From the IMG/VR virus record IMGVR_UViG_3300046810_000558, positions 1-42,116 of that record: 42,116 nucleotides of DNA, one strand, 5' to 3'. The translations under genes were made by a program, and so were the position numbers. The DNA comes from a virus. Positions 2,389 to 36,983 of this stretch are shown here, in pieces. Below the pieces are notes generated by a model that was not told the DNA's origin, searched no databases, and saw only the letters and a list, made by a program, of their open reading frames with translations. Numbering within the stretch: the stretch's first letter is position 1; each line of letters opens with the position of its first letter.

Positions 2389-3453
2389 TTAAAATGTTGA
2401 TTTAGATGTCTCAAAGTTGCTGAGTTTGCGACGGTACTTTTCAACATTCTTATCAATCAATACATATAATATCAAAGAGCACGATATTGAAATGCATATC
2501 ATAATTAATGACCACATCCAACTTCCGCGATGATTTGTAATCACGTAAGCTACAATCGGCCAGTGAATTAAATAAATAGGGTAGCTGAGTTCACCTATGA
2601 ATCTATCAAGCTTACTGTTTTTAGTGAAGTGAAAAACAAATGAGACGGAAGCGGCAAACATTGAGAAGCAGATTATATTAATATATGGATTATTGAAGTC
2701 ATGTTGAATAATCGAGATTAAAACGAATATCAACACGCACCCCGACAATGACGCAACCCACCACCTTATATTTACGTAAATTAATTTAATTTTCAACAAA
2801 CACCACAACCAATAAGAAATCATACCCAGAAGAAATAACCAGAATGAATTTAAGGCACTTCGGTGATCTAATGGATGATGAAAGAACAGCATACTTTTAA
2901 TGGTGATGTATACTATCGTGAAAATCACAAGCAATGATGCGGTGATCCTCCAACTCCTTGCAAACAAAGGGGCAACCAAGTAAAAGCATATCTCCACACC
3001 CACAGACCACATATGCTGCATATGTGCTGCGTTTGTCAGGGGTTGGATTTTCAAGGATTGTGCTTGCTGATTAAGAAAAACCAGGTGGTTAGTACTATCG
3101 ATGCCAAACCACCAAAGTATCTGCGAAAAAAGCATTGATATTGATGATAAGTAGACCAACATGGTTCCCCAAAAATTTCTATAAATACTCGGGTCTATTG
3201 GTGCCACAAAAATCACGACTAAAATGAATACGGAGATGTAACTAGGCCATAACCGAAGAATTCTCGCAAGATAGAAACCCGATGTATTACCGACATATTT
3301 TTCGTTTAATACTAGCGCCATATAGAACCCAGATATTATAAAGAAGGCCATTACTGCAAGGTGGCCTTCAATGCCTGGGGCTCTGATTCCATTGTGAGAC
3401 ACGACAACTGATATTGCGAGTAAGAAACGAATTAATCCCATGACATCGCTCAT
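2389..3453 (-). CDS. Acyltransferase family 3 (O-antigen acetylase-like)
   Basis: A 354-residue polytopic membrane protein of the OafA/Oac type (acyltransferase 3). It has the N-terminal RFLLAISVVVSHNG segment with the conserved His at residue 20, about ten hydrophobic helices, SVGVEICFYLVAPL near the middle and YPIYLIHWP near the C-terminus. These enzymes acetylate lipopolysaccharide sugars at the inner membrane. The gene is AT-rich compared with the tail genes and sits just beyond the tail fibre, the usual place for serotype-converting genes in SfV-like and P22-like phages. The likely benefit is altering the receptor to block superinfection. The acceptor sugar cannot be predicted. Confidence 0.85.
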   Translation of the reverse strand: MSDVMGLIRFLLAISVVVSHNGIRAPGIEGHLAVMAFFIISGFYMALVLNEKYVGNTSGFYLARILRLWPSYISVFILVVIFVAPIDPSIYRNFWGTMLVYLSSISMLFSQILWWFGIDSTNHLVFLNQQAQSLKIQPLTNAAHMQHMWSVGVEICFYLVAPLFARSWRITASLLVIFTIVYITIKSMLFFHHPLDHRSALNSFWLFLLGMISYWLWCLLKIKLIYVNIRWWVASLSGCVLIFVLISIIQHDFNNPYINIICFSMFAASVSFVFHFTKNSKLDRFIGELSYPIYLIHWPIVAYVITNHRGSWMWSLIMICISISCSLILYVLIDKNVEKYRRKLSNFETSKSTF

Positions 3454-9806: not shown

Positions 9807-11676
9807 ACTGGTTTGAGAAGCGGTTATAGCCGACATCAAAGTTAAGCCAGGGTAGTGAATTACCCGCTGGCGCAACGCGCATTCCGGGAGGAGCATTTTC
9901 GAAAGAAACTTTCAGTTCCCCCTGCTGCCCCTTTTGAGACTGCAAAAGGGGTTTACTTGTATCTGCACTCTGGTCCATACCAAGCAGTTCTTTAAGTCTT
10001 GGTATAAAGCCCTGATAGCCGCGATCTGAGTCAGCCTGCTTTCCTTTGTTAACCAGAAGCGTTCCTACATCCGTGTTCTGTTTTGCGGCTTCATCATGCA
10101 GATTATTGACGCGCTTCATGAGATCGAAGAGCACGGAAATGGTGACTGTTATCACCCCCATGTTCGCAATGCCTTTCAGGTTTTTTGACAGTTTCCCCGC
10201 TTCAGTATTAGCACCGCCAAATCCTTTTACCATCGACACCAGCCACGCACCTGCAGTGAAAAAAGCAACGCCTTTTAATACATTCTCCCATCCTCCAAGA
10301 GCCTGCGCGACGCCATCTATATTTTCCCACACCTTTTTAACGACAGGGCCAGCTTGATCCCAGTTACTGACTATGAGGCTGCCTGCTAAAACCACCAGTG
10401 CGAGAAGTTTTCCCATGGTGGTCATTTTCATGACTGAGTCGAAGGTTTTGAACGCTTTGGTAGCTACACCAAAGGCCGAGGCAGTACCAAGCAAAGTAAC
10501 GCCGAATTTGAATGCCCCCTTTACCATTTCGGGGTTGGTTTTCACGAACTGCCTGAACCGTTCAATCAACGGTTGCACTTTGGCGCTAAGTTTCACGATA
10601 GTTGGCAGAAACATATCGCCAATGGTGATGCTGGCTGCGGTAAATTGGTTCTTCAGTAATTGAACTGAGTTCGACGTTGTTGCTGCGCGCGATTCGTATT
10701 CCTTCTGCATTGATGCGCCATATTGCTGCGCATCAGAAACACGACCGAAATTCTTTCTCAGCAGGTCAAGGTTGGTCAGCAATGGCGCAATTGCGCCTAA
10801 AGACTCTTTCCCAAAAAGAGCATTCATCACCGCTGCTTGTTTTTCTTTTGGCACTTTAGCGAGCGAGTCGAGGACTTTAAGCATCGCTTTTTTCGAGTCT
10901 TTCTGCATGTCAGCAGCCAGCTGTGCAGGATCGATTTTGATAAACTTCAGGGCTTTCTTCTGTGAGGACGTGGCTGATTTACCAGAGGTCAGGGAAAGCA
11001 TGAAGTTCTTGATGCCCGTAGCTGCGATTTCAGACTCCACGCCCATTCCCGCGATCGTTGCCCCCATTGCGGCAATCTCACCAGACGCTACCCCTGCAAC
11101 TCCACCAAGTGGACCGATCCGCGTCACTATCTCAGAGATTTTTCCGGCACTCGCCGGACCGGTATTGCCGAGATAGTTGATTTTATCCGCAAGCCCAACA
11201 ACGTCTTTCTGCGTCATTTTGAATGCGGTACGCCACTGAGCCATCATCTGACCTGACTCTTCAGCAGTCTGATCAAATGCAACGCCCATTTTTACAGCAT
11301 CACTGGCGAACTGTTGCAGGTCTTCCCTGGCTATTCCCGCCTGCCCACCAGCAGCAACGATCTGGGCAATCCCGTTCGCCGCCATTGGAAGCCTGGTTGA
11401 AAGCTTAAGCACATCCTCGCCCATTTCCTTAAATTGGGCTGGAGTGTCGAAATTTACGACTTTACGAACGTCGGCCATGGATGATTCAAATTCCATAGCC
11501 TGATTAATTGGGATCACGAATGCCGACGCGATTGCTGTTCCCATGGCGGCCGCGTTCACCATTATGTTTTTTGCGTCTTTCTGGAAACCCTTAAGGTTCT
11601 TGCTCATACCCTTAAGTGGACCCGACAACTGATCCACCGCAGTGATAATCGCTTTTAGCTGGAAACTATCCGCCAC
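9805..11676 (-). CDS. Tail tape measure protein
   Basis: A 623-residue protein of the TP901-type tape measure family. It starts FQLKAIITAVDQLSGPLKGMSKNLKGF, has the conserved MEFESSMADVRKVVNF block near residues 60-75, an Ala/Gly-rich helical middle and hydrophobic segments around residues 390-440. Its length sets tail length; at 623 residues a fairly short tail is expected. It lies between the frameshifted chaperone genes and N, in Mu order. Confidence 0.93.
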   Translation of the reverse strand: MADSFQLKAIITAVDQLSGPLKGMSKNLKGFQKDAKNIMVNAAAMGTAIASAFVIPINQAMEFESSMADVRKVVNFDTPAQFKEMGEDVLKLSTRLPMAANGIAQIVAAGGQAGIAREDLQQFASDAVKMGVAFDQTAEESGQMMAQWRTAFKMTQKDVVGLADKINYLGNTGPASAGKISEIVTRIGPLGGVAGVASGEIAAMGATIAGMGVESEIAATGIKNFMLSLTSGKSATSSQKKALKFIKIDPAQLAADMQKDSKKAMLKVLDSLAKVPKEKQAAVMNALFGKESLGAIAPLLTNLDLLRKNFGRVSDAQQYGASMQKEYESRAATTSNSVQLLKNQFTAASITIGDMFLPTIVKLSAKVQPLIERFRQFVKTNPEMVKGAFKFGVTLLGTASAFGVATKAFKTFDSVMKMTTMGKLLALVVLAGSLIVSNWDQAGPVVKKVWENIDGVAQALGGWENVLKGVAFFTAGAWLVSMVKGFGGANTEAGKLSKNLKGIANMGVITVTISVLFDLMKRVNNLHDEAAKQNTDVGTLLVNKGKQADSDRGYQGFIPRLKELLGMDQSADTSKPLLQSQKGQQGELKVSFENAPPGMRVAPAGNSLPWLNFDVGYNRFSNQ

Positions 11677-26668: not shown

Positions 26669-27097
26669 TCAGGCTAATTTCGTAACGAACATCCTTCTAT
26701 AAATCTTTTTTGAAATTGTTTCCTGCGTCCAGCTATCCATCTCAAGTTCATAGCCGGTCATGATTATGCATGCATCTATGAACGTCTCCGCGATCATCAT
26801 CTGCTGTCTAACTTTACCCTCGGAGCATTTTTTCCATCTGGCGATAGTCGATTTCGATACGTCGTACATGTAATGAAGCATAACCAGTTCAAGTTCATCT
26901 TCACGTTTAGCTTTCTTCAGCATTCCGACAGCTGTGTCGATAATCATTCCGTCATTATCACTGCAGGAGAGTCTCGTTTTTTTGCTTGGCGGGAGAAGGC
27001 TTTTAAACATGGCGCTGGTAGGTGACCAGCCCACACTGCTACCTTCCTTCCCGGCCCAGCCGCCCCAACGTTCAAGCACTAATTGAATATCACGCAT
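26669..27097 (-). CDS. Late antiterminator Q-like protein
   Basis: A 142-residue protein starting MRDIQLVLERWGGWA, the signature start of the Q antiterminator family found in many lambdoid phages (phage 82/933W-related type). A C-terminal helix-turn-helix-like segment follows (LHYMYDVSKSTIARWKKCSEG). It loads on RNA polymerase at the late promoter and lets it pass terminators, several of which occur downstream. Gene position just before lysis is canonical. The AGCGGAGACA linker precedes it. Confidence 0.9.
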   Translation of the reverse strand: MRDIQLVLERWGGWAGKEGSSVGWSPTSAMFKSLLPPSKKTRLSCSDNDGMIIDTAVGMLKKAKREDELELVMLHYMYDVSKSTIARWKKCSEGKVRQQMMIAETFIDACIIMTGYELEMDSWTQETISKKIYRRMFVTKLA

Positions 27098-32572: not shown

Positions 32573-32691
32573 TTGCTTACCATCTCCATAACCAGAGCCA
32601 AAAAGAGCAGAGCAATCAATACGCTTGCGATGCGAATGCTGTGATAAAAAATTTCATGCCGGTTGAGGTGCGCCCGTAGTCTGCTTTTCAT
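32569..32691 (-). CDS. 40-residue single-helix membrane peptide
   Basis: ATG 32691 overlaps the TGA of the PerC-like gene (ATGA) and has GGAGGG upstream; its own TGA overlaps the ATG of the ParB-like gene (ATGA). The product starts MKSRLRAHLNRHEIFYH and ends with one hydrophobic helix (IASVLIALLFLALVMEMV). This tight chaining strongly supports a real translated gene. Function unknown. Confidence 0.7.
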   Translation of the reverse strand: MKSRLRAHLNRHEIFYHSIRIASVLIALLFLALVMEMVSK

Positions 32692-33134
32692 AAGTCCCTC
32701 CACAGATCAATGGCCGGAACGGACACAGAATTAACGCTGGAGACATCAGTCAGAATGCCAACGCAGCCATGACTTATGCAGTACTCCCGGCGTGTCGCAG
32801 CCTTGTCGCGGGCCTCTTCGTTGATGGTTGAATCCATCGCCTGAAGCCATTCACGGGCCGCACGTCGCCATAAACCACGCTTCTCCAGTTCAACAGCCTT
32901 CGCACGGTGCGTTTCATACTTAGGTCCGAGGCATGCCCGATCGGATTCCAGCGGTAAGCGGTAGAAAAATGGGTGTGCCTTACGCGCATAGCGGGTCACA
33001 ACTTCTTGCGTGTAAAGCTCGGTCATCAGCGGCTGGATCAGGCGGCGCGGTATACCTGCACCGTTGGCGATCTGCGTTGAAGTGCAGCCAGGGTTTTTTC
33101 GGACAAACTCGACAGCCAATTCACGAATATTCAT
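32688..33134 (-). CDS. PerC-like transcriptional regulator
   Basis: A 148-residue protein. Residues 1-60 are a winged-helix-like domain (GCTSTQIANGAGIPRRLIQPL). Residues ~80-120 carry the PerC signature AVELEKRGLWRRAAREWLQAM followed by RREYCI. PerC-family proteins are phage-borne regulators that can affect host virulence or fimbrial genes. Start overlaps the O-like gene's stop (ATGA). Confidence 0.8.
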   Translation of the reverse strand: MNIRELAVEFVRKNPGCTSTQIANGAGIPRRLIQPLMTELYTQEVVTRYARKAHPFFYRLPLESDRACLGPKYETHRAKAVELEKRGLWRRAAREWLQAMDSTINEEARDKAATRREYCISHGCVGILTDVSSVNSVSVPAIDLWRDL

Positions 33135-34165
33135 GCTGCGTTACTCCCCGATGTGCGCTGTGCGCAGTCTTTCCAGATGCTGTTCCAGCGGCTCACTGCG
33201 AAACTGGCATTCATCGACCGAACATTTGCCCTGCTGGCTTCAGCCTTGACCATTTCTTCCAGCTGGCTTGGGTTTCTCAGTTGTCTGCCGCTCCCGATGA
33301 AGCGACGGTAGGCTGCGTCACGTTCGGTGTGATCTTCACGCTTGTGCCCGATGGTTTCGCCGTTGTCCCTGACCCACTCCCCGTTCACGCACTTTGGTCG
33401 GCCTGCTTTGAGCCAGCCGTTAGCGCCGCTGAGGTACCCCTGAAACTTCGTTGGCTGGAACATCGTCGTGGGGCGAAGGTATTCAGCCATCTTCAGGTCA
33501 TTGGCCCACTTGGCATTCAGGTAATCGGTCGTCAGGATCAGCTCGTCAGTAGTAAACCCTTCACCCAGCCGGGCCCGGATGTTCTCCATCGAAGACTTGC
33601 TTACCTGGTATCGCTGTCCGGTAACCCGGTTGAGGTGGGTTAATACCTGCTTAGCCATGTCAGTCAAAACCACTTCAGGGTCGGTCTGCGCAGCAGGCTG
33701 ACAAGAAGTCTTTTTATCTGATGGTTCTTGTTTTGAATTTACTAACGGATCGCCCCCAGATTTCAGAGGGTCAAAACCGTTTTCACGCTGGGATTTCGAC
33801 GGGTCAGATTTTGATGCCTCAAATTTTGATGCGTCAGATTCTGAGGTGTCAGATTCTGGCGGGTGAACTTTAGAGGCAGCAGCACGCAGTTTTGCAACGT
33901 TCAGCTCATAAATATTCGACGCATTCCGGTTGCCCTGGCGACGTTGACGGCGGCTTAACCACCCATCCTTCACCAGTTTGCCGATCGCATTACGCACCGT
34001 GCTTTCACCAGCGCCAATCTGACGCGCAATCGTTGCCACGCTTGGCCAGCACACACCTTCGTCATTACACCAGTCAGCCAGTCGAGCCATGATCACCACC
34101 TCCGACAACTTCATGCCAGACAAAGCGCAGCCGTCCCAAACGTATGCGGATAACTTAACGCTCAT
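33131..34165 (-). CDS. Replication initiator, lambda O-like
   Basis: A 344-residue protein. The N-terminal ~110 residues are a winged-helix DNA-binding domain (LADWCNDEGVCWPSVATIAR, then STVRNAIGKLVKDGWLSR). Residues ~115-165 are a repetitive Ser/Asp/Lys linker. The C-terminal domain (VLTHLNRVTGQRYQVSKSS to TTMFQPTKFQGYLSGANGWL) is the conserved phage replication C-terminus. ATG 34165 begins MSVKLSAYVWDG and overlaps the DUF4222 stop (ATGA). The linker DNA contains 15-bp iterons, so the gene probably holds the origin. Confidence 0.85.
   Translation of the reverse strand: MSVKLSAYVWDGCALSGMKLSEVVIMARLADWCNDEGVCWPSVATIARQIGAGESTVRNAIGKLVKDGWLSRRQRRQGNRNASNIYELNVAKLRAAASKVHPPESDTSESDASKFEASKSDPSKSQRENGFDPLKSGGDPLVNSKQEPSDKKTSCQPAAQTDPEVVLTDMAKQVLTHLNRVTGQRYQVSKSSMENIRARLGEGFTTDELILTTDYLNAKWANDLKMAEYLRPTTMFQPTKFQGYLSGANGWLKAGRPKCVNGEWVRDNGETIGHKREDHTERDAAYRRFIGSGRQLRNPSQLEEMVKAEASRANVRSMNASFAVSRWNSIWKDCAQRTSGSNAA
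33786..33875. repeat. Six 15-bp iterons, probable replication origin
   Basis: Six consecutive degenerate 15-bp units, best seen as GGGTCAGATTTTGAT (33801), GCCTCAAATTTTGAT (33816), GCGTCAGATTCTGAG (33831) and GTGTCAGATTCTGGC (33846), with weaker units at each end. They lie in the middle of the O-like gene, as the lambda origin does. An AT-rich stretch follows at about 33708-33750. The encoded peptide is a matching five-residue Ser/Asp repeat. Confidence 0.7.
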
Positions 34166-34350
34166 ATAACCCTCGTGAATTTCTTGATGAAGAGTTCCAG
34201 AGGCTGCATGCACTCATACGGATACCCTTCACGGAGGTAGATGACTTGCTGGTTGATTCGGTCCCAGCGGATAACAGTGACCAGAACGCCGCGATTGTCC
34301 CGGTATTTCCTTTTGAGGTTTCGGCTGTCTTCATCCACGCAGCCCTCCAT
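34162..34350 (-). CDS. DUF4222 early protein
   Basis: A 62-residue protein with the family pattern YRDNRGVLVTVIRWDRINQQ, then VIYLREGYPYECMQPLELF. DUF4222 genes lie just ahead of O-like genes in many enterobacterial prophages. Function unknown. Overlaps its neighbours on both sides. Confidence 0.8.
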   Translation of the reverse strand: MEGCVDEDSRNLKRKYRDNRGVLVTVIRWDRINQQVIYLREGYPYECMQPLELFIKKFTRVI

Positions 34351-34566: not shown

Positions 34567-35091
34567 TTAAGTGCGACGATGCCCGGGAGCTGCAATCTCC
34601 TGGGCATCAACTTTTCTGCCCACCATCAAATCTGCTGCATCGGCCTGCATACCGTGCAACGCTGCCCAGGTCAGTACACCCTGCATGGTGTAGCGAATGG
34701 ACTTCATAACGCTCTGTGTGACTGACTTCAGTTCGTGATACTCAACCACCCCATCCTCTTCAGCATCCAGCTTGCCCTGTGCTGCTAAACCTCTGGCAGC
34801 GTCTGCGCGCATCTGCAAAGTAAACAGGTCCACGTTATCCACCAGCTCAGGATTCGGGTTATCAACCACCAGCATCCCAAACTGAGCAGCAAAGTAGTCA
34901 GCCAAGAACGGATGGCCTACCACGTGCTGCATGAACGCCAGCTGGTCCATATCGAAGAACCGGGTGCCGTTTTTCATGTGCAGGCGGTTGTTAAACTCGC
35001 CATATTTCAATCCCATGAATTCAGCAATCTCTCTGTTCGTGCCTTCGTACTGCTTACATGCCTGAATCACAATCTGCTGTAATTCCACCAT
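34567..35091 (-). CDS. CII-type regulator, YmfL family
   Basis: A 174-residue protein: MVELQQIVIQACKQYEGTNRE, IAEFMGLKYGEFNNRLHMKNG and FFDMDQLAFMQHVVGH are the YmfL/phage-CII family blocks. It has an N-terminal helix-turn-helix, and its position directly after Cro fits a lysogeny-decision activator. Confidence 0.85.
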   Translation of the reverse strand: MVELQQIVIQACKQYEGTNREIAEFMGLKYGEFNNRLHMKNGTRFFDMDQLAFMQHVVGHPFLADYFAAQFGMLVVDNPNPELVDNVDLFTLQMRADAARGLAAQGKLDAEEDGVVEYHELKSVTQSVMKSIRYTMQGVLTWAALHGMQADAADLMVGRKVDAQEIAAPGHRRT

Positions 35092-35113: not shown

Positions 35114-35317
35114 TCAGGCCGTAGCCTTTGGTCTATCGTTCTCTTGGTACATCGCAGGGTCATATTTCAACTGGCCCTTCGAAACCTTTTCGATCAACAA
35201 CGCGTATTTCCATGGGATCACTTCCTTCCAGAGACTTACTGTTGCTTTCGAAACCCCGATTGCAGTCGCAACTTTTGTTGCTGTGCCGTAATGGCTGATT
35301 ACGTCTTGTTTGTGCAT
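35114..35317 (-). CDS. Cro-like repressor
   Basis: A 67-residue HTH protein (TATKVATAIGVSKATVSLWK) in the first position of the leftward early operon, divergent from CI. GGGGAGG precedes the ATG. It should bind the same 16-bp operators as CI at 35346 and 35393 and shut repressor synthesis during lytic growth. Confidence 0.88.
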   Translation of the reverse strand: MHKQDVISHYGTATKVATAIGVSKATVSLWKEVIPWKYALLIEKVSKGQLKYDPAMYQENDRPKATA

Positions 35318-35344: not shown

Positions 35345-35374
35345 AGTTTAATGTTTCAAACAAAACAAAGTCAA
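35345..35374 (-). promoter_or_regulatory. pR-like promoter with operator OR-a
   Basis: Minus strand TTGACT (35374-35369) and TAAACT (35350-35345) lie 18 bp apart. The 16-bp operator GTTTGAAACATTAAAC (35361-35346) fills the second half of the spacer and the -10 element. CI or Cro binding there would block the leftward early operon. Confidence 0.75.
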
Positions 35375-35392
35375 GAAATTAAACTTGATGTT

Positions 35393-35408
35393 GTTTAAAT
35401 TATTAAAC
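35393..35408. promoter_or_regulatory. Operator OR-b, next to CI start
   Basis: GTTTAAATTATTAAAC has 6-bp arms GTTTAA/TTAAAC around ATTA. It matches the other two operators at most positions and abuts the possible CI start codons, so it could autoregulate cI. Confidence 0.7.
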
Positions 35409-35423
35409 ATGAGAAACGATTTA

Positions 35424-36062
35424 ATGAGCGACCGTATAAACTTGCGCATGCGGTCCTTGAAGCTCAAAAGCAAAGATTTGATTGCTGCTACAGGGGCATC
35501 TAAAGGAACTGTTAGCCAGTGGGTTAACGGCGGCACTGAGCCGTCTGCAACTTACCTCTCTAAACTTGCTGATGTATTAGGTGTGAGTGAGAGATGGCTA
35601 ATTCATGGTGGATTGATCGAGGAGACAAAAGGTAATGGATTACCGGGCCCAGATGTCAGAAGGCGCGTTCCGTTGATTTCATACGTGCAGGCGGGCAGCT
35701 GGAGGGAGATTATGGACAACCAATTCGACGATCTTAGCGACTGGGTTGAAACTACCGCAAATGTGTCACCCTTTTCTTTCTCCTTAAAGGTTCAGGGCGA
35801 TTCGATGTTCAATCCCTCTGGTCATGGTGTCTCGATACCTGAAGGTAGCTTAGTCATCGTTGATCCAGAGGTTGAGCCTTTAAGTGGCAGAATTGTTGTC
35901 GCCAGGCTAAATGCGTCCAATGAAGCAACAGTAAAACGTCTTGTCGTTGATGGTCCAAACACTTACCTGATGCCACTTAACCCAGCTTACAAACCAATTC
36001 CGTTTGATGGGAATGGAGAAATCATCGGCGTATGCGTACGTATTGAAATCAATCTAATTTGA
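35424..36062 (+). CDS. CI-type repressor (XRE + S24 peptidase)
   Basis: About 212 residues from ATG 35424; ATGs at 35409 and 35385 are also possible, and the message may be leaderless. The N-terminal HTH reads KDLIAATGASKGTVSQWVNGG. The C-terminal S24 domain has SLKVQGDSMFNP (Ser nucleophile) and RIVVARLN with a following EATVKRL lysine. The likely cleavage site is in the linker near YVQAGSW. RecA-stimulated autocleavage would link induction to DNA damage. A terminator follows at 36084. Confidence 0.92.
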   Translation: MSDRINLRMRSLKLKSKDLIAATGASKGTVSQWVNGGTEPSATYLSKLADVLGVSERWLIHGGLIEETKGNGLPGPDVRRRVPLISYVQAGSWREIMDNQFDDLSDWVETTANVSPFSFSLKVQGDSMFNPSGHGVSIPEGSLVIVDPEVEPLSGRIVVARLNASNEATVKRLVVDGPNTYLMPLNPAYKPIPFDGNGEIIGVCVRIEINLI

Positions 36063-36146: not shown

Positions 36147-36174
36147 TTGACATGAAAGTTTGAATCATTAAACT
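36147..36174 (+). promoter_or_regulatory. pL-like promoter with operator OL
   Basis: TTGACA (36147-36152) and TAAACT (36169-36174) are 16 bp apart. Operator GTTTGAATCATTAAAC lies at 36158-36173, between and over them. It differs from the pR operator by one base in sixteen. A weaker GTTTAAAAAAACGAAC lies at 36123-36138. It should drive the rightward operon from 36534 and be repressed by CI. Confidence 0.75.
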
Positions 36175-36210
36175 CTAATTTATCAAGTACGAATGCTGTG
36201 TGTAGTCTTG

Positions 36211-36271
36211 GCGGGTATCCGGTTACCTCCTCACCAGGGAATTTATAACCCGGTTTACCCGCACTTTTTTT
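36211..36271 (+). terminator. Terminator-like hairpin in the pL leader
   Basis: GCGGGTA (36211-36217) pairs with TACCCGC (36256-36262), extended inside by CCGGTT against AACCCGG with one bulge. Seven T residues follow two bases later. A transcript from pL would end here after about 90 nt unless antiterminated, giving a small RNA. Confidence 0.65.
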
Positions 36272-36277
36272 ACATCA

Positions 36278-36406
36278 GGCAAGGGCATTTGCAAGGCGGG
36301 TCTTTGTTGAACGCTTTGAGACGCTAAGCGAACGCCCTTGCCGATGTGGGATATCCGGTGATAGTCAGGTCGATCCACCTGATGCAGGTTCAACTCCTGA
36401 TACCAC
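36278..36406 (+). ncRNA. Structured leader RNA with tRNA-like fold
   Basis: Two elements. First, GGCAAGGGC (36278) pairs perfectly with GCCCTTGCC (36334), with an inner CGCTT/AAGCG hairpin. Second, 36346-36406 looks like a small tRNA: GTGGGAT and ATACCAC form an acceptor stem with one mismatch, TCAGGT-CGATCC-ACCTGA an anticodon-like arm, and CAGG-TTCAACT-CCTG a T-arm whose loop fits TTCRANY. The D-arm region is short. No protein frame of note lies between 36175 and 36534. It may be an antitermination (put-like) or regulatory element. Confidence 0.45.
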
Positions 36407-36533
36407 CTCACTCAGCGGAGACAGGCTGTGGATTAATGCAGTGATCCACCAGCCTATTAAATACACCAAGGCCTTCTGAATTATTGCCAATCTGGCAAGG
36501 GATTCGTGCAGCCTGAATTTGATAGGTACACAC

Positions 36534-36983
36534 ATGGCAGAAGTAGCAGAATTAACAACGTCAGAGCTGGTTTCCGAAGCTTACGGTAAAGCAAAAGAGC
36601 TGGATAAATCCTTCCCGGATATCTCCTGCCTGCTGCGTGCTCTGGCCGTTCGCCTCGATATTCGTCAGGCTCTCGTTAAAGCCTCCCGTGATTCACAGGT
36701 AGAGCGCTTCCAGCCTGACTACATGATGCATATGAATCATGAGATGGCCTATATGCGGCCATGCCCTAATGGGCAGTATGTGAAGTTTGACTTGCTGGCA
36801 ACCTACATCGAGCAGAACGCCCACTTAAAGATGGTCCAAACCACCCTCGCGATTGCGCTCGATCTGCCTGGCGAAAAGTCTTTTGCCAGTGAAGTGATCA
36901 ACCGAGTGCTTAACGGCCCCACTCCGGGCATGGAGGGGTTCCCATGCAGACGCCAACCGATGCCATCACAGTTGGATTCATAA
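36534..36983 (+). CDS. First protein of the pL operon, unknown function
   Basis: A 149-residue mostly helical protein starting MAEVAELTTSELVSEAYGKA. ATG 36534 is preferred over an upstream TTG at 36519. It has two Cys, no membrane segment and a basic C-terminal tail. Family not recognised. It is the first gene downstream of the structured pL leader and is overlapped by the next gene, so it should be expressed early. Confidence 0.7.
   Translation: MAEVAELTTSELVSEAYGKAKELDKSFPDISCLLRALAVRLDIRQALVKASRDSQVERFQPDYMMHMNHEMAYMRPCPNGQYVKFDLLATYIEQNAHLKMVQTTLAIALDLPGEKSFASEVINRVLNGPTPGMEGFPCRRQPMPSQLDS

Follow-up and report, generated by a model that had tools for sequence, protein, structure and literature searches.

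A proposed small RNA with the RprA seed in the pL leader of a lambdoid phage, and the recurrence of its seed in unrelated phages

The window, that is, the whole stretch of DNA analysed here, comprises 42,116 nucleotides (positions 1 to 42,116 of the IMG/VR virus record IMGVR_UViG_3300046810_000558). Its immunity region has an ordinary lambdoid layout, and the structural genes of the phage are nearest to those of Pantoea phage AH07. The genes of interest are as follows.

26669-27097: Q antiterminator gene (PF06530)
33131-34213: O-like replication protein gene
34567-35091: CII/YmfL-like gene
35114-35317: P22-Cro-like gene
35385-36062, plus strand: CI-like repressor gene, with HTH_3 and Peptidase_S24 domains (Pfam PF01381 and PF00717; PHROG 4 repressor)
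36534-36983, plus strand: first gene of the pL operon, with a weak match to PHROG 4790 (RecBCD inhibitor); a search of genome contigs gave no match for it

The leader is the noncoding stretch between the CI-like S24 repressor gene and the first early gene, whose ATG is at 36534. We found the following features in and around it.

36147-36174, plus strand: pL promoter (TTGACA-16-TAAACT), from a consensus scan
36158-36173, no strand assigned: operator dyad GTTTGAATCATTAAAC, overlapping the -10 box of pL
36182-36271, plus strand: proposed sRNA of ~90 nt with the RprA seed and an intrinsic terminator, based on promoter position, core, terminator and a match to RF00034
36194-36209, plus strand: TGCTGTGTGTAGTCTT, the 16-nt core, which has the same letters as RprA nt 62-77, the part of RprA that pairs with csgD and dgcM
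36211-36271, plus strand: intrinsic terminator, stem GCGGGTA/TACCCGC with an inner stem, then T7 (from the fold)
36272-36347, plus strand: long hairpin, GGCAAGGGC/GCCCTTGCC at 36278-36286/36334-36342, extended by ACATC/GATGT (from the fold)
36346-36406, plus strand: D-armless tRNA-like element of 61 nt, with homologs at loci L047 and L344, and with T-arm enrichment and covariation
36484-36513, plus strand: gene-proximal element TTGCC-n5-GGCAAGGGATTCGTGCAGCC, from a viral scan (at least 120 stretches)

A sequence-only reading of this DNA had described a terminator hairpin, a 9-bp stem and a tRNA-like element in the leader after pL, and all three were found where it had placed them. The promoter is backed by consensus and context, and exact copies of GTTTNANNNNTNAAAC occur at only three places in the 42-kb window, one at pL and two at pR (35346-35361 and 35393-35408). 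Transcription from pL probably starts near 36182, as we infer from the sequence. The promoter lies only about 10-12 nt upstream of the core, the core begins ~10 nt after the probable start, and the terminator stem stands directly 3′ of the core. At the other end of the leader, TTGCC-n-GGCRAGGGATTCGTGCANCC was seen directly upstream of the first early gene in at least 120 IMG/VR stretches, some of them before other, recombination-type genes.

In a permissive Rfam scan, RprA (RF00034) was the top family, with 34.7 bits and an E value of 0.018 over all families, and a search of the window's own record with RF00034 gave 34.7 bits and an E value of 3.6e-4; this score is below the gathering cut-off of the family (70 bits). 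The leader matches RF00034 because ACGAA-TGCTGTGTGTAGTCTT (36189-36209) resembles ACGAATTGCTGTGTGTAGTCTT of K-12 rprA in the alignment of the two. At the gathering threshold, Rfam gave no match in the window, and its matches in 20 related loci were all tRNAs. In addition, direct BLAST of the leader against annotated phages and E. coli gave no match. The proposed leader sRNA is not a member of RF00034, yet it is predicted to act like processed RprA. A short form, RprA60-105, was mentioned by Mika et al. (PMC3465796); this form is composed of the core and a terminator. The phage leader has the same 16-nt seed as RprA and RprA60-105, directly before an intrinsic terminator with a U-tail, and the predicted pairing with csgD and dgcM is common to RprA and the phage core. 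However, RprA is under Rcs control and has its own chromosomal gene (ydiK-rprA-ydiL in E. coli), whereas the phage copy lies behind a CI-controlled pL in an immunity region. Furthermore, the phage leader RNA lacks the 5′ half of RprA, and its terminator stem is unrelated to that of RprA.

The terminator stem has its arms at 36211-36217 and 36256-36262, and the T7 runs to 36271. The hairpin had been proposed from the letters alone, and its fold (-21.7 kcal/mol, z -2.6), which is significant when taken by itself, agrees with that proposal; the whole leader folds with z -5.6, and 0 of 100 shuffles were equally stable. By our script criterion, a terminator was present in all of the 88 distinct sequences 3′ of the core, rprA and kilS included. 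The stem begins 16-18 nt past the first core base in 84 of the 88, and the stem sequences are highly diverse.

The abundance of the core in phages was then considered. The core followed by NGC occurs in at least 120 IMG/VR stretches, many of them from closely related isolates. It was also found in 67 to 85 annotated phage records, a count from short-query searches whose weakest rows are chance matches. The carriers among annotated phages belong to unrelated types, including lambdoid, Mu-like, N4-like, and jumbo phages. Ten annotated core-bearing records were examined individually, and a GC hairpin with a T-run stands behind the core in all ten. In the eight with a temperate-type immunity region (SfV, mEp390, Rac-SA53, vB_EcoM-606R2, phiES15, phiNP, BUCT709, and pAEv1818), the core lies 3′ of the repressor gene, on the same strand, and 5′ of the early genes. 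In N4-like Ea9-2 and jumbo Y3, the core lies between unrelated genes. These two are strictly lytic N4-like and jumbo Erwinia/Dickeya phages, and the RprA core with its terminator is at 3001-3060 both in L130 (Erwinia phage Ea9-2) and in L131 (Erwinia phage Y3).

Since these loci were picked by the core, the conservation of the core among them is circular, and thus a second sample was picked by the gene-proximal GGCRAGGGATTCGTGCANCC. In this core-independent sample, the exact seed was present in 34 of 108 distinct upstreams. Most of the other upstreams with the slot had near variants (AGCTGTGTGGAGTCTT, CGCAGTGTGTAGTCAT, and TGCAACGTGTAGTCAT), and the remaining upstreams belonged to other gene contexts. 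Thus, the slot is stable and the seed is variable, and the RprA seed is the commonest one. Upstream of the core, CCACCgaGCCTGatGTGGtgaaaagaCAGGC recurs in L127, L129, L133, and L134 soon after the presumed pL; it could form an H-type pseudoknot.

Two known sRNAs of E. coli prophages lie at the equivalent locus. In the Rac prophage of K-12, the annotated sRNA KilS is located there, in the 5′ UTR of kilR, and it has the same core, with one base differing from the window after GTC. KilS was verified by northern blot and has an independent start site (PMC8175672). It was also detected by others as a stable Hfq-bound RNA, and yncL is the only RIL-seq target named for it. KilS and the window share the kind of terminator, the position from repressor to first early gene, and the structured RNA downstream. 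However, the 5′ part of KilS is longer and has its own upstream hairpins, whereas the promoter of the window is ~10 nt before the core. Of 5,426 complete E. coli genomes, 370 contain KilS-type sequences, which are unannotated among the matches listed. No connection between KilS and RprA was found in the published literature, and the publications consulted on Pas sRNAs give no RprA or kilR context. In the Qin prophage, the sRNA DicF (PMC5069750) is at the equivalent locus with another seed. DicF resembles the proposed sRNA of the window in its location in a pL-type operon leader, in the terminator style (TTTGGCGG...CCGCC-T-run), and in the tRNA-like or structured RNA downstream. However, its seed differs (targets ftsZ, xylR, and pykA), and DicF is 53 nt long and made by processing. 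The window has the same layout as KilS and DicF, with an intrinsic terminator between the repressor gene and the first early-operon gene on the same strand. The sequence-only reading had offered two interpretations of the leader. The first, a possible regulatory role for the ~90-nt product, has strong support from the joining of the RprA seed to a terminator, and also from the locus, which is that of DicF and KilS; the second, put-type antitermination, gained no support and is discussed below.

The pairing of this stretch of RprA with csgD and ydaM (dgcM) was proven by compensatory mutations (Mika et al., PMC3465796). In our recomputation, the core pairs over 13 bp with csgD (about -98 to -86; -22.3 kcal/mol) and over 11 bp with the dgcM start (-15.8 kcal/mol). 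The phage core would be expected to repress csgD and dgcM in the same way. The 12-nt csgD site is retained in Enterobacter cloacae. No 12-nt perfect target common to Enterobacterales was found; the search gave the antisense of rprA itself and otherwise scattered matches, among which csgD of Enterobacter cloacae is the recognised target. The E. coli genome in this species-genome comparison was a strain other than K-12. The core is kept in rprA genes from Xenorhabdus to Escherichia, and thus older targets should exist. In Hafnia psychrotolerans (L321), a 12-nt perfect complement of the RprA core lies ~27 nt into a LuxR-type regulator gene, which is a possible further target of RprA.

It should be noted that E. 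coli RprA was reported to be inactive on Salmonella csgD (PMC3634460). In the host of this phage, the RNA may therefore act on a target other than csgD. In addition, the phage RNA is without the 5′ half of RprA and the csgD anti-sites Ia and II, which leaves site Ib as the only one, and the pairing there may be weak. Phage diffusion and spread are blocked by curli, and biofilms that lack curli set free more phage upon induction (PMC11831127). This obstruction would be a motive for a phage to carry the RprA seed.

The phage itself also has a predicted target.

33156-33171, minus strand: AAGACTGCGCACAGCG, a predicted target site within the phage, located 22 nt upstream of the start codon of the PerC-like ORF (32688-33134)

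A duplex of 16 bp, with G-U pairs counted, is predicted between this site and the core (-26.2 kcal/mol). Among the 55 translation starts of the phage, that of the PerC-like ORF ranked first; none of 200 shuffled seeds matched its energy, and the variants of the site in kin maintain the pairing through G-U. Kin with another repressor have a complement of the core (14 nt plus a G-U) at codons 11-16 of their repressor mRNA, and control of the repressor by the sRNA is possible in those kin. Overall, there were 6 strong antisense sites against 0.9 for shuffled seeds. These results are in favor of a real sRNA that would act mainly inside the phage, by pairing with mRNAs of early phage genes (in this phage the O/PerC-like junction, in kin phages the repressor start) and timing those genes, with host targets secondary. 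However, no own-phage antisense sites stood out in the other phage groups with the same core, and the lytic N4-like and jumbo phages have the core without PerC-like or repressor genes. We regard a mainly intra-phage role as unlikely, and it is the strongest of the alternatives. The repressor mRNA start (codons for DYTQQ) with a perfect 14-nt complement of the core was seen at about 3913 in L121, L122, L123, and L126, and at 3350 in L124 (minus strand). An apparent second core in kin phages was actually this kind of antisense site within their repressor gene, and another apparent core, in L124, was a degenerate remnant.

The terminator might also be a simple attenuator of the pL operon, and the core a run-up to it that has no target. 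The core always adjoins the terminator, and phage AH07 has lost the seed and kept the terminator. However, terminator stems vary freely, whereas the 16-nt core is constant across unrelated phages and rprA, and a mere run-up would drift. This makes the attenuator reading quite improbable. The seed-deletion variant of Pantoea phage AH07 (L359) reads TTGCTGTG-TTGGCGG and lies in the leader near 11085-11140.

Downstream of the terminator, the 9-bp stem noticed earlier is present and can be extended to ~14 bp, and the hairpin folds with -34.1 (z -3.7), likewise significant by itself. Of 146 distinct leaders, 72 have a long inverted repeat just past the sRNA terminator, compared with 6 after shuffling. 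The arms are unrelated in sequence between phages, and the repeat was found even in N4-like and Aeromonas phages. Thus, the structure and not the sequence is kept. We propose that the long hairpin may be an RNase III-type processing stem.

The tRNA-like element has a T-arm at 36384-36399 (GCAGG-TTCAACT-CCTG), with a 4-bp T-stem and the canonical T-loop TTCAACT, a 6-bp anticodon-like arm at 36365-36382, and an imperfect acceptor-like stem. It shares the T-arm with tRNAs, but it lacks the D arm and the recognised cloverleaf. The element alone folds no better than shuffles (z -0.4), ARAGORN reported no tRNA, and Rfam gave tRNA-Sec alone, with 23.2 bits against a cut-off of 47. Across 165 leaders related to this one, T-loops flanked by 4 or more pairs numbered 39/168 on the sense strand, 1/177 on the antisense strand, and 33/1365 elsewhere; the strand-specific T-arm count was 33 sense and 0 antisense. 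Furthermore, the T-arm pairs covary (pair 3: A-T 17, C-G 10, T-A 8, and G-C 3). By the enrichment of T-loops across related leaders, the element exceeds chance. Pairing is conserved in other leaders for both the hairpin and the T-arm. The homologs at L047 and L344 have better acceptor stems. At these two loci (L047 7457-7530; L344, minus strand), the pL leader also contains a genuine tRNA gene, which stands after the sRNA terminator and before the tRNA-like element. It scores 69.8 bits in L047, and with the anticodon loop CTTCTAA it is probably a tRNA-Arg.

In the simplest reading, the stem and the tRNA-like element are probably RNA-processing signals. DicF, the lambda pL leader, and the P1 C4 and P4 CI RNAs are precedents for such processing, and the C4 and CI RNAs are phage regulatory RNAs with tRNA-like processing by RNase P. 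However, C4 and CI are antisense immunity RNAs of unrelated phages, and RNase P cleavage in the window is a proposal.

The sequence-only reading had also suggested that antitermination may depend on the RNA itself, as at the put sites of HK022. Folded leader RNA would then act on RNA polymerase without a protein factor and carry it past the terminator. Its premise holds, for no N-like gene is evident and profile and family searches of the window gave no match to an N-like protein family, although the pL operon still contains genes without an assigned function. In addition, a search for boxA near CGCTCTTTA gave no match on the leader strand within 1 mismatch. Thus, neither boxA nor the N-like protein of the lambda N/nut system was found in the window. 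As at HK022 putL, the phage has no evident N, and structured RNA forms stable hairpins in its pL leader. However, the leader is no more similar to the HK022 immunity/pL region (NC_002166 26000-32000) than shuffled sequences are (score 25; shuffled mean 23.4, maximum 31). Furthermore, the hairpins of the window lie past the first terminator and cannot help polymerase through it, and their arms are unrelated between phages, unlike a polymerase-binding element. If the terminator is the 3′ end of an sRNA with partial read-through, no antiterminator is needed. The suggestion gained no support, and we consider it very improbable. In the least probable reading, the core would persist mainly as a joint at which mosaic phages recombine and exchange modules. 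This reading draws on a mosaic junction exactly at the core (the window and its kin are >95% identical from AATGCTGTG, the core, onward and have three unrelated sequences upstream). However, rprA and the N4-like and jumbo phages also have the core, without shared neighbours, and a joint does not require a terminator directly behind it.

We therefore return to the reading that we consider probable, with moderate confidence: the leader would encode a phage sRNA that is silenced by CI, made on lytic development, and able to act on RprA targets through the RprA seed, followed by processing elements. When CI leaves the pL operator, transcription would start near 36182, run about 10 nt to the 16-nt seed, and stop partially at the terminator (to 36271). 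This would yield a 5′-shortened RprA with seed, GC hairpin, and U-tail, as in RprA60-105, which should bind Hfq and pair with the targets of RprA. Among these targets are csgD and dgcM in E. coli-type hosts, so curli and matrix synthesis would be lowered during lytic development. The mRNA of the phage's own PerC-like gene would be a second target. Read-through transcripts would include both the long hairpin and the tRNA-like element and would probably be cut there, by RNase III-type and RNase P/Z/E-type cleavage, separating the leader from the operon mRNA.

Phage-encoded sRNAs, such as DicF, KilS, anti-sRNAs, and Pas RNAs, are known one by one. What is new here is the breadth of occurrence and the identity of the seed, and in the literature searched we found no description of a host sRNA seed common to so many unrelated phages. 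We tentatively suggest that Enterobacterales phages, both temperate and lytic, may have repeatedly acquired the active half of RprA and may express it early, reprogramming RprA targets (biofilm matrix and c-di-GMP). In lambdoid phages, it would sit in an exchangeable cassette, in which one terminator platform can carry an RprA-type, a DicF-type, or another seed; processing hairpins and tRNA-like elements would come after the cassette. If this is true, early phage transcription would be tied to the control of curli and matrix, a known barrier to phage spread, and there would be a testable role for KilS and for the unannotated KilS-type copies in those 370 E. coli genomes.
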